Shown in pieces: positions 16,357 to 26,218 of a stretch of DNA of 44,243 bases. The DNA is from Herpetosiphonaceae bacterium (lineage in GTDB: Bacteria > Chloroflexota > Chloroflexia > Chloroflexales > Kallotenuaceae): assembly GCA_036374795.1 (NCBI GenBank), contig DASUTC010000270.1, positions 1 to 44,243 of the forward strand, in the 5' to 3' direction. The first letter of the stretch is position 1. Each line of letters begins with the position of its first letter. The notes under the pieces were generated by a model. The model saw nothing but the letters and a program-made list of their open reading frames with translations. It ran no database searches and was not told where the DNA came from. The translations under genes were made by a program, and so were the position numbers.

Positions 16357-17910
16357 CTACAGCGGAATGTTGCCATGCTTGCGTGGCGGCAGACTTTGCC
16401 GCTTCGTCCGCGACAGCCTGAGCGCCTTGATCAGCGCTGGCCGCGTCTCGCGCGGCTCGATCACCTGATCGATATAGCCGCGCTCCTCGGCGACATACGG
16501 GTTGGCGAAGCGCTGCTGGTAGTCGTCGACCAGCTCCGCCAGCCGGGCCTCAGGGTCGGGCGCGTGGGCCAACTCCTTGCGGAAGATGATCTTAACCGCC
16601 GCGTCCACGCCCATCACCGCGATCTCCGCCGTGGGCCAGGCAAAGTTGAAGTCGGCGCGAATATGCTTCGAGGCCATCACATCGTACGCGCCGCCGTACG
16701 CCTTGCGGGTAATCACCGTCAGCTTCGGCACGGTCGCCTCGCAGTAGGCGTAGAGCAGCTTCGCGCCGTGGCGGATGATCCCGCCGTACTCCTGCTGCGT
16801 GCCCGGCAGAAAGCCCGGCACATCCACGAACGTCACCAGCGGAATATTGAACGCATCGCAGAAGCGGACGAAGCGCGCGCCTTTGATCGAGGCGTCGATG
16901 TCGAGCGTGCCGGCCATCGCCAGCGGCTGATTGCCGACCACGCCGATCACATGTCCATCCAGCCGCGCAAAGCCGATCAGCAGATTTTGCGCCCAGAACG
17001 GCTGCACCTCGCAGAAAAAGCCGTCGTCCACCACGCTGGCGATCACCTGATGCATATCATACGGCTTCTTGGGCGAGTCGGGAACGATCGATTGCAATTC
17101 CTCATCCGTCCGTTCGGGATCGTCCGTGGGCGGCACGTAGGGCGGATCTTCCATGTTGTTGGCGGGCAAGAACGACAGCAGCGTACGCAGCTGGTCGAAG
17201 CACTCGGCCTCGTCCTCGGCGGCGAAGTGCGCGACGCCGGAGCGGCTGTTGTGGGTCATCGCGCCGCCCAGCTCCTCGAAGCCCACCTCCTCGCCGGTGA
17301 CGCTTTTGATCACCTCAGGGCCGGTGATGAACATCTGCGAGGTGCCTTTGACCATCAGGATAAAATCGGTGATCGCGGGCGAGTAGACCGCGCCGCCAGC
17401 GCACGGCCCCGCGATGATCGAGAGCTGCGGGATCACGCCCGACGAGATCACGTTGCGGTAGAAGATCTCGGCGTAGCCGCCCAGCGCGACCACGCCCTCC
17501 TGAATCCGCGCGCCGCCCGAATCGTTGATGCCGATGCAGGGCACGCCCATGCGCAGCGCCAGATCCATCACTTTGACGATCTTTTCGGCAAAGACCTCGC
17601 CGAGCGAGCCGCCGAAGACCGTAAAATCCTGCGAAAAGACACACACCGGGCGTCCATCGATCGTGCCGTGGCCGGTGATCACGCCGTCGCCGAGCGGATG
17701 CACCCGGTTCAGGCCAAAGTTATGCGAGCGATGCACGGCGAGCGCATCCAGCTCGACGAACGAGCCCGGATCGAGCAGCATATCGATCCGCTCGCGGGCG
17801 GTCTGCTTGCCGCGCGCATGTTGCTTCTTGGCAGCCTCAGGGTCGGTCGTGGCCGCAAGCTTGCGCCGCTCCCGAAGCTCTTCAATCTTTTGCTGAGTCG
17901 TCTTGGTCAC
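16357..17910 (-). CDS. Acyl-CoA (propionyl-CoA) carboxylase, carboxyltransferase beta subunit
   Basis: This 517-residue protein begins with GTG at 17910, with AAGGGA upstream. It has the two crotonase-like halves of biotin-dependent carboxyltransferases. The N-half has [45 protein letters not shown] and [12 protein letters not shown]. The C-half has [40 protein letters not shown] and [12 protein letters not shown]. Length and motifs match PccB/AccD5-type subunits, which carboxylate propionyl-, acetyl- or methylcrotonyl-CoA with carboxybiotin. Specificity cannot be settled here. In phototrophic Chloroflexia such enzymes serve the 3-hydroxypropionate bicycle, but that is only context. No biotin carboxylase gene is adjacent. 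The selenoprotein gene ends 92 bases upstream on the same strand and may be cotranscribed. Confidence 0.9.
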
Positions 17911-18002: not shown

Positions 18003-18572
18003 TTATGGCGCTTTGCGCTCCGGGGGCTCCGCGCCAGGCCAGCCCGGCTGCGTAATCTCGACCTGAAGCGCGTCGTTGAAGCGGTTGAAGAAGTTGAACA
18101 TTCCGGCGACCGCCACCAGCTCCATGATCTCAGCGGGATCGAAGAACTGGCTCAGCTCCTCCCACAGCACATCGCCGAAGCGCTTCGCGTCCTGGGTCAC
18201 GTGCTCCGCCAGCCGCAGCACGGCCTGCTCGCGGGGCGAGAACCGCTCACGGGCGGCGGGATCGTCCATCAGATCAATCGTATCCTGGGACACGCCCAGG
18301 TTCCGCAGCAGCGCGGAGTGCGAGGCCAGTCAATAGGCGCAGGTATTGAGCTGGCTGACGCGCACCGCGACCATCTCCTTGAGCCGCAGCTCGACGGTTC
18401 CGGTGCCCAGGATCGCATCCATGCACGCGGCGGTCGCCCGCGCCATGTCGGGACGCAGCGACAGCGTGCGGAACATGTTGGGCACGCTGCCCCGTTTATG
18501 GTAAAACGCCTCCCAGACAGCGTGTGCCTCAGGCGTTATCTCTTCGGCGCGTGGCGGCTCGATACGTGGCAT
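18003..18572 (-). CDS. Predicted selenoprotein: AhpD-like/carboxymuconolactone decarboxylase-family protein with CxxU motif
   Basis: Two abutting same-frame ORFs make one 189-residue protein if the single in-frame UGA (18332-18330) is read as selenocysteine. The ATG at 18572 is preceded by AAGGAGGT six bases away. Before the UGA come LRLKEMVAVRVSQLNTCAY, and after it LASHSALLRNLGVSQDTI. With Sec81 the motif is C78-A-Y-U81-L-A-S-H85, which fits the family's CxxC-xxx-H active site exactly. The family includes AhpD-type thiol reductases that act on peroxides. The second half (EHVTQDAKRF, AVAGMFNFFNRFNDAL) is also normal for the family. Stem-loops directly after the UGA fit bacterial SECIS spacing, and selA lies 5.4 kb away. 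A nonsense mutation is the alternative. AhpD-like selenoproteins are known in other bacteria. Confidence 0.85.
18284..18332 (-). promoter_or_regulatory. Sec UGA codon and candidate bacterial SECIS element
   Basis: The UGA is 18332-18330. On the mRNA, hairpin 1 (18317-18302) is UCCGC-GCUGCU-GCGGA, whose first loop base G lies 17 nt after the UGA. Hairpin 2 (18300-18284) is CCUGGG-CGUGU-CCCAGG, a perfect 6-bp stem with a loop G 36 nt after the UGA. Bacterial SECIS elements need a loop G near the loop start about 16-37 nt from the UGA, so both qualify on spacing. Which one binds SelB cannot be decided by eye. Confidence 0.65.
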
Positions 18573-18593
18573 AGATGACCTCCTTATAGAGCA

Positions 18594-23948: not shown

Positions 23949-25331
23949 ATGAGCAACACAGCACATCGTGCCCTACCATCGGTCGACCGGCTGGTCCGCG
24001 CGGTCGAAGAGCAGATCAATGGGACGCTGCCTCACGCCGAGGTGGTCCAGGTCGCACGGATGGTGCTAGACACGGCCCGCCGCACGATCGCGCAGGGCGA
24101 GGCCGCCCCGTCGTTCGATGAGCTTGCCGGGCAGGTGCGTGAGACAGTCGCGCGCCTGACTCAGCCGAGCCTGCGCCCGCTGATCAACGCGACCGGCGTG
24201 ATCGTGCAGACCAACCTGGGACGCGCGCCGCTGAGCGCGGCGGCGCTATCGGCGATGCAGGCGGTCGGGCGGGGCTACTCTAACCTGGAGTACGATCTGG
24301 CTGCCGGTGCGCGCGGCTCGCGCTACCATCACCTGACCGAGCTGCTGGCGCGGCTGACGGGCGCGGAGGCTGCGCTGGCGGTCAACAATAACGCCGCTGC
24401 CGTGCTGCTGACGTTGACCTGCTTCTGCGCGGGGAAAGAGGTGATCATCTCACGCGGTCAGGCCGTCGAGATCGGCGGCGGCTTCCGCATCCCCGATGTG
24501 CTACGCCAGAGCGGCGCGCGGCTGGTCGAGGTAGGCACGACCAATCGCACCTACACCCACGACTATGCCGCCGCGATCACGCCCGACACGGCGGCGATCC
24601 TCACAGTGCATCGCTCCAACTTCCGCGTCGTGGGCTTTACTCACGAGCCGCACGAGATGGAGCTGCATCATCTTGCGCACGAGGCGGGCGTGCTGTGGAT
24701 CGACGACTGGGGCTCTGGCTCGCTGCTGCGGCCTGAGCACTACGGCCTGGCTGCCGAAGACACGATCCAGGATCGCGTCGCTGCGGGCTGCGATCTCGTC
24801 TGCTTCTCCGGCGATAAGCTGCTGGGCGGGCCGCAGGCTGGCCTGATCGTCGGCGCTGCGGAGCTGATCGGTCGGCTGCGGAAGCATCCGCTGCTGCGCG
24901 CGCTGCGTGTGGACAAGCTGACGATCGCGGCGCTTGAGGCGACGCTGCTAAGCTACCTGCGCGGACGAGCCGAGGAGGAGATTCCGGTCTGGCAGATGAT
25001 CAGCGCGCCGCTCGAATCGCTCCACAGCCGGGCCGTGACGATCGTCGAGCGGCTGCGCGGGCAGGGCCTCGCTGCGGTCGAGGCACGCGCCTGCGAGAGC
25101 GCGGTGGGGGGCGGCTCGCTGCCGGGCGCGACGCTGCCGGGCTGGGCGGTGGCGATCAGCGCGCTGCCAGATCCGCTCCACGCGCGGCTCAGAGGTGGCG
25201 ATCCCGTCGTCGTGGGCCGCATCGCCGACGATCGTCTGCTGCTCGATCTGCGCACGGTCTTGCCTGATCAGGACGATGCGCTGATCCAGGCGCTTCTGGC
25301 AGCCCTGCATGAGGAGTCACGACGCTCATGA
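23949..25331 (+). CDS. selA: L-seryl-tRNA(Sec) selenium transferase (selenocysteine synthase)
   Basis: This 460-residue PLP enzyme converts seryl-tRNA(Sec) to selenocysteinyl-tRNA(Sec) using selenophosphate. The N-terminal helical tRNA-binding part (residues 1-70) starts LPSVDRLVRAVEEQI. The core has LINATGVIVQTNLGRAPLS, YSNLEYDLAAGARGSRYHHL, NNNAAAVLLTL, EIGGGFRIPDV, VEVGTTNRTYTHDY and IDDWGSGSLL. The PLP lysine is K290 in FSGDKLLGGPQAG. These are diagnostic for SelA and distinguish it from its archaeal paralogues. The start lacks a good Shine-Dalgarno. The stop overlaps the LysR start by four bases. selB, selD and the tRNA-Sec gene are not in the window. The likely client is the UGA-containing AhpD-like gene upstream. 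Confidence 0.95.
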   Translation: MSNTAHRALPSVDRLVRAVEEQINGTLPHAEVVQVARMVLDTARRTIAQGEAAPSFDELAGQVRETVARLTQPSLRPLINATGVIVQTNLGRAPLSAAALSAMQAVGRGYSNLEYDLAAGARGSRYHHLTELLARLTGAEAALAVNNNAAAVLLTLTCFCAGKEVIISRGQAVEIGGGFRIPDVLRQSGARLVEVGTTNRTYTHDYAAAITPDTAAILTVHRSNFRVVGFTHEPHEMELHHLAHEAGVLWIDDWGSGSLLRPEHYGLAAEDTIQDRVAAGCDLVCFSGDKLLGGPQAGLIVGAAELIGRLRKHPLLRALRVDKLTIAALEATLLSYLRGRAEEEIPVWQMISAPLESLHSRAVTIVERLRGQGLAAVEARACESAVGGGSLPGATLPGWAVAISALPDPLHARLRGGDPVVVGRIADDRLLLDLRTVLPDQDDALIQALLAALHEESRRS

Positions 25332-26218
25332 TCCTCGATCTGCCGAAGCTGCGCATCTTCGCCGCCGTGGCTCGCACGGGATCATTTACCCGCGCCGCAG
25401 ACGAGCTTGATCTGCGCCAGCCGACGGTTAGCCAGCAGATTCAGGTTTTAGAGCGCAGCCTGCGCACGCCGCTGTTCGAGCGGCTGGGCCGCCGCGTGCA
25501 GTTGACACCCGCCGGAGCCGCGCTGCTGCCCTACGCCGAGCGGCTGCTGGCGCTGGCGACCGAGGCAGAGACGGCCACGCGCGAGGCGGCGGGGCTATCG
25601 GCCCGAACGCTGCGGCTGGGCGCGGGCAACACCTTAGCGACCTACGTCCTGCCCGATCTGCTGGCGCGGCTGCGCTGGGAGCGGCCCGATGTGGTGGTGC
25701 AGGTCCAGGTCGGCAACACCGAGCAACTGATCGCCGCCGTCGTGGACAACCGCGTCGAGCTAGCGGTCGTCGGCGCGCCGCTCAGCCATCCGGCGCTGGA
25801 GATCCATGCGTTTCTCCGCGATGATCTGGTGATGATCATGCCGCCCGACGACGAGTGGGCCGAGCGGCGCGCGATCGGCCTGGCCGAGCTGCAATCGAGG
25901 ACGCTGCTGCTGCGCGAAGAAGGATCGGCGCTTCAGGCTGCCGTAACAGAGCTGCTGCGCGAGCGCGGGATCGTGCCTGAGCGAATGATTACGCTCGGCA
26001 ACCTTGAGGCGATCAAGCGCTGCGTCGAGGCTGGCCTGGGTGTGTCGGTGGTGCCTGAGCTGGCGGTCCGCCGCGAGGTCGCCAACGATATGCTGCGGGC
26101 GCTGCCACTGGCCGATGTTCAGCTTCGGCGGACGTTCAACTACGTCTACAGCCGCGACCGCACGCTCTCGCCCGTGGCGCAGGTCTTTATCGAATTGCTC
26201 GAAAAGCCCTTCGAGTAG
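25328..26218 (+). CDS. LysR-family transcriptional regulator, translationally coupled to selA
   Basis: This 296-residue LysR regulator has an N-terminal winged HTH (residues about 5-65: LRIFAAVARTGSFTRAADELDLRQPTVSQQIQVLE) and a periplasmic-binding-like effector domain from about 90 to 290 (LRLGAGNTLATYVLPDLLARL and so on). Its ATG lies within the selA stop codon (ATGA overlap), so it is translationally coupled. LysR regulators tied to selenium-metabolism genes are a recognised subgroup, which makes a selenium role plausible, but the ligand cannot be inferred from sequence. The DJ-1 family gene converges on it only ten bases after its stop. Confidence 0.9.
   Translation: MILDLPKLRIFAAVARTGSFTRAADELDLRQPTVSQQIQVLERSLRTPLFERLGRRVQLTPAGAALLPYAERLLALATEAETATREAAGLSARTLRLGAGNTLATYVLPDLLARLRWERPDVVVQVQVGNTEQLIAAVVDNRVELAVVGAPLSHPALEIHAFLRDDLVMIMPPDDEWAERRAIGLAELQSRTLLLREEGSALQAAVTELLRERGIVPERMITLGNLEAIKRCVEAGLGVSVVPELAVRREVANDMLRALPLADVQLRRTFNYVYSRDRTLSPVAQVFIELLEKPFE

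Follow-up and report, generated by a model that had tools for sequence, protein, structure and literature searches.

An AhpD-like gene with an in-frame UGA in its CxxC motif: a predicted selenoprotein of a Herpetosiphonaceae bacterium

An AhpD-like gene of a Herpetosiphonaceae bacterium is interrupted by one in-frame UGA, at the second cysteine position of its CxxC redox motif. Judged by comparison with its relatives, it is very probably a selenoprotein gene, in which this UGA would be read as selenocysteine (Sec) rather than as a stop. Standard annotation is expected to cut such a gene at the UGA, leaving an 80-residue fragment and missing a complete redox enzyme; because this is the only CMD-family protein found in the source genome, the loss would hide the whole activity. 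Below, the window is the entire 44,243-nucleotide stretch of DNA analyzed, and its features are collected in Table 1.

The gene and its in-frame UGA

The frame runs on the minus strand from an ATG at 18572 to a terminal TAA ending at 18003, and translation finds a lone internal TGA at the motif, as a preliminary description of this DNA had claimed; the strong ribosome-binding site of that description is also there. The protein matches TIGR01926 (peroxidase-related enzyme) over residues 2-171 (95.4 bits; cut-off 81.8) and the Pfam CMD family over residues 41-123 (69 bits). The latter match spans the UGA, and H85, the motif histidine (18318-18320), is in place; the family sequence does continue beyond the interruption. 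Together with E66 (18375-18377) and the CAYU motif, H85 matches the proton-relay residues of AhpD, and alignment to solved structures of homologues covers the fold.

Table 1. Features of the predicted selenoprotein gene, its candidate SECIS elements and selA, in window coordinates
Feature	Position	Strand	Basis and remarks
AhpD-like (peroxidase-related) gene, predicted selenoprotein	18003..18572	-	189 residues, counting the UGA as Sec; translation, TIGR01926, Pfam CMD
UGA codon 81, predicted Sec, second position of CxxU	18330..18332	-	sole internal stop; the aligned codon is TGC/TGT in Cys homologues, TGA in Sec ones
CAYU redox motif, C78-A79-Y80-U81	18330..18341	-	residues and spacing as in PA0269; alignment to solved structures
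Ribosome-binding site AAGGAGG	18579..18585	-	direct reading; strong; six bases 5' of the ATG
Predicted SECIS hairpin UCCGC-GCUGCU-GCGGA	18302..18317	-	loop 17 nt after the UGA; pair probabilities 0.92-0.98; overlaps the site where other Sec homologues have their conserved hairpin
Second possible hairpin CCUGGG-CGUGU-CCCAGG, alternative SECIS candidate	18284..18300	-	loop 35 nt after the UGA; identical in L021; pair probability 0.22 in the window
selA, L-seryl-tRNA(Sec) selenium transferase, required for making Sec	23949..25331	+	TIGR00474, 554.9 bits (cut-off 268); shares no operon with the AhpD-like gene

Codon 81 among the homologues

If the gene is a selenoprotein gene, how do its relatives encode the same position? 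With the UGA treated as X, the residue aligns with the Cys of AhpD/CMD homologues: in an alignment of 120 homologue entries, a few of them duplicates of the same locus, this residue is encoded by TGC in 67, TGT in 14 and TGA in the remaining 39, while TAA and TAG never occur. Nonsense mutation at random would not produce such a distribution. The nearest homologues in a search of 60 relatives belong to Herpetosiphonaceae (54-61% identity). A metagenome-assembled genome of this family (G027; locus L021/L080) also has UGA here, in a protein 57% identical to that of the window, whereas the codon is TGC or TGT in Herpetosiphon and in a third genus. When species genomes were scanned and the search was widened to the phylum, more UGA forms were found, in Chloroflexota (Chloroflexia and others), Acidobacteriota and Anaerosolibacter (Bacillota).

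On a quick tree of 112 rows, the Sec and Cys states require 6 changes, compared to 31 in shuffles, and at least four of these are forced by well-supported branches. The window's row sits on a long branch whose exact place is uncertain, grouping with Herpetosiphonaceae at 85% support. The distribution of the gene is patchy, since three other genomes of the same genus yielded no close homologue; a viral collection yielded no relatives. Sec/Cys exchange within one order, among genomes most of which retain the Sec machinery, offers a good natural comparison for what selenium contributes to AhpD chemistry. Separately, one genus of the same order has a second, distant AhpD-like group (L041-L048, in G007, G028, G035, G037, G039, G042, G054 and G056), whose motif reads CHYU or CFYU, with UGA at the corresponding position. 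One contig among the homologues, JADDPP010000445.1, is titled 'Rubrobacter sp.' (L086/L162) but is the same stretch as G332, which is placed in the window's class (Chloroflexota); its NCBI name is probably wrong.

Could the gene instead be a pseudogene, in which an ancestral TGC or TGT became a nonsense TGA and the distal half is no longer translated? A single base change would suffice, and near Herpetosiphonaceae relatives (L020 and L022-L027) do have Cys at this position. However, the same codon is UGA in many distant species, with no other stop codon there, the genome has a complete Sec machinery, and the distal half is free of further stops and conserved as much as the proximal half: protein identity to L021 rises from 49% before the UGA to 63% after it, and three other relatives are 55-60% identical before and 50-62% after. 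The distal half is constrained at the protein level, as that of a pseudogene would not be, and we consider this explanation very unlikely.

A sequencing or assembly error, in which TGC or TGT was misread as TGA, might be suspected in a genome assembled into 373 contigs (7.75 Mb). But independently assembled genomes of other species share this UGA, and the synonymous sites that follow it are closer to those of the Sec orthologue than to those of the Cys ones, making such an error exceedingly improbable. Between the window and L021, nucleotide identity is 94% over the 17 codons that begin with the UGA, compared with 57.5% upstream of them and 71% beyond them; shared residues use the same codon in 14 of 16 cases in these 17 codons and in 23 of 39 upstream, small numbers both. 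This pattern is consistent with selection on the RNA. Finally, nothing specific points to decoding of the UGA as another amino acid (e.g., Trp, under genetic code 4) or to general read-through, and the probability of either is next to negligible: in homologues, UGA is exchanged with codons for Cys rather than Trp, the Sec machinery is complete, and the window's ordinary long genes are intact under table 11.

A candidate SECIS element

Sec insertion would need a SECIS hairpin downstream of the UGA, and here the case is comparative, because the window's own hairpin does not stand above codon-shuffled controls (p = 0.18, single sequence). Leaving aside the window and L021, the Sec homologues share a constant site where a hairpin can fold, with a GGC or GUU loop starting 20 nt after the UGA. 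When 26 Sec sequences were aligned, the window and L021 included, this 8-bp helix showed compensatory changes at five of its eight pairs and pairing in 86.5% of cells; its covariation score was reached by none of 500 shuffles, and slid versions of the helix scored lower. No shared hairpin was seen by eye at the same place in the Cys homologues.

At least three pairs of the family hairpin are broken in both the window and L021, and the predicted 5-bp hairpin of the window is shifted by a few bases. It nevertheless falls within the rules given for bacterial SECIS elements, namely a loop of 3-9 nt with G in its first two positions, a stem of 4-16 bp, a spacing of 16-37 nt and an MFE of at most -7.5 kcal/mol (PMC13188914): its 6-nt loop begins with G, its spacing is 17 nt and the MFE over 48 nt is -18.1. 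This agreement supports a SECIS function, short of proof. The source genome's selD, in which a hairpin loop starts 16 nt after the selD UGA, has nearly the same spacing. A second possible hairpin, whose loop lies farther from the UGA, is an alternative candidate that fits the loop-G rule better in L021. Rfam and tRNA scans of the window returned no matches.

Selenocysteine machinery and gene neighborhood

Does the source organism have the means to insert Sec? The preliminary description had suggested looking for selB, selD and tRNA-Sec elsewhere in the genome, and all are present: one tRNA-Sec above the Rfam cut-off (67.7 bits, anticodon TCA, i.e., UCA), SelB (340 bits, in adjoining pieces that are in frame) and SelD (373 bits), whose gene has an in-frame UGA at its own Sec position. 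Two formate-dehydrogenase-like matches of the molybdopterin-oxidoreductase type (G000:C345:15534-16325 and G000:C159:29798-30586) contain one in-frame TGA each and are likely to be further selenoproteins. Taken with SelA, these genes make the genome look like that of an active Sec user with several selenoproteins. With the machinery in place, X aligned with Cys and a SECIS-like hairpin kept in the family, the proposal of Sec at the second CxxC position is supported by every suggested check that computation allows, and none of the findings that had been named in advance as speaking against it was seen.

Some relatives gave weak second matches to the Rfam tRNA-Sec model. The four loci checked (L178-L181) are all tRNA-Ser, which rules out second tRNA-Sec genes there and indicates that the Rfam gathering cut-off passes false positives in this order. 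In the window, a LysR-type regulator gene (25328-26218, plus strand) overlaps the end of selA; its match to the selenium-metabolism LysR model NF040786 (231.6 bits) lies slightly under the cut-off of 250, and it is a possible regulator of selenium genes.

The neighborhood of the AhpD-like gene is another matter. Its distance of 5.4 kb from selA, which had been offered in favor of Sec, is correct, but does not indicate a functional unit: selA lies on the other strand and is not found near the homologues. The downstream neighbor (16357-17910) encodes a carboxyl transferase, and a link between the two genes had been proposed. This link is rejected: the closest Sec orthologue has a different next gene, hydroxyisobutyrate-dehydrogenase-like, and tblastn (E 1e-3; the positive control worked) found no relatives of the carboxyl transferase, selA, the LysR gene or two other neighbors around 35 homologue loci, many of which cover only about 1.5 kb per side, so that linkage at greater distance could escape. 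The window's association with selA and the other neighbors looks incidental.

Predicted function

In the mechanism that we propose, SelA would turn Ser-tRNA(Sec) into Sec-tRNA(Sec) with selenophosphate supplied by SelD, and SelB, held at UGA codon 81 by the SECIS hairpin just downstream, would bring this tRNA, with its UCA anticodon, to the ribosome. Sec81 would then be inserted, and translation would proceed to the TAA. In the product, Sec81 would stand in place of the second Cys of CxxC and Cys78 would act as the resolving residue, with Glu66, Tyr80 and His85 forming a proton relay; the enzyme probably reduces peroxides or other oxidized substrates through a Sec81-Cys78 selenenylsulfide.

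The arrangement of these residues has precedents. E66, C78, Y80, U81 and H85 correspond in kind and spacing to Glu36, Cys48, Tyr50, Cys51 and His55 of PA0269, a CAYC protein that reduces H2O2 with low activity in a published assay; the M. tuberculosis AhpD set is Glu118, Cys130, His132, Cys133 and His137 (PMC3141380). The spacing of the Glu, the CxxC/U motif and the His is the same in the predicted selenoprotein as in both of these proteins. Sec81 occupies the position of AhpD Cys133, which in established AhpD chemistry is the residue activated by the proton relay, and a more reactive selenolate at this position would therefore be sensible. The profile also matches Bmp8, an AhpD-like debrominase.

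A broader proposal, which we put forward tentatively and consider rather doubtful, places the gene in an AhpD-like subfamily of its own, rich in Sec forms and found in Chloroflexota, Acidobacteriota and Anaerosolibacter, with repeated Sec/Cys exchange, a SECIS that has moved to a new register in the window and in the Sec relative closest to it, and a substrate that may not be a simple peroxide.

Comparison with known systems

The Cys orthologues of Herpetosiphon (e.g., H. aurantiacus CP000875) are 54-55% identical to the predicted selenoprotein and share its length and motif region, but have TGT or TGC in place of TGA and no matching hairpin after that codon. PA0269 of Pseudomonas aeruginosa (PDB 2O4D) has the same E-x11-C-A-Y-C/U-x3-H active site, with identical spacing, in a shorter chain and with Cys for Sec. 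Two AhpD-related families that include Sec forms match weakly, and the protein is a member of neither: NF053654 (GroundWater_YciW, YciW-related (seleno)protein; 73.7, cut-off 310) and NF041238 (AhpD_rel_CFYUT; 62.2, cut-off 175).

That AhpD-like selenoproteins form a known class, as the preliminary description had stated, agrees with the literature: CXXU forms were first reported in 2005, from the Sargasso Sea (PMC1088965), and 'AhpD-like protein, TIGR01926, CxxU' is one of the prokaryotic selenoprotein families given in a 2026 review (PMC13188914). The gene described here resembles this family in its above-cut-off match to the model, its CxxU motif, its UGA at the same catalytic position and its widespread Cys homologues; it differs in being a new Chloroflexota sequence and in its predicted SECIS, which is shorter than, and shifted relative to, that of most collected relatives. 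It is thus well supported as a new sequence in an already known selenoprotein family.
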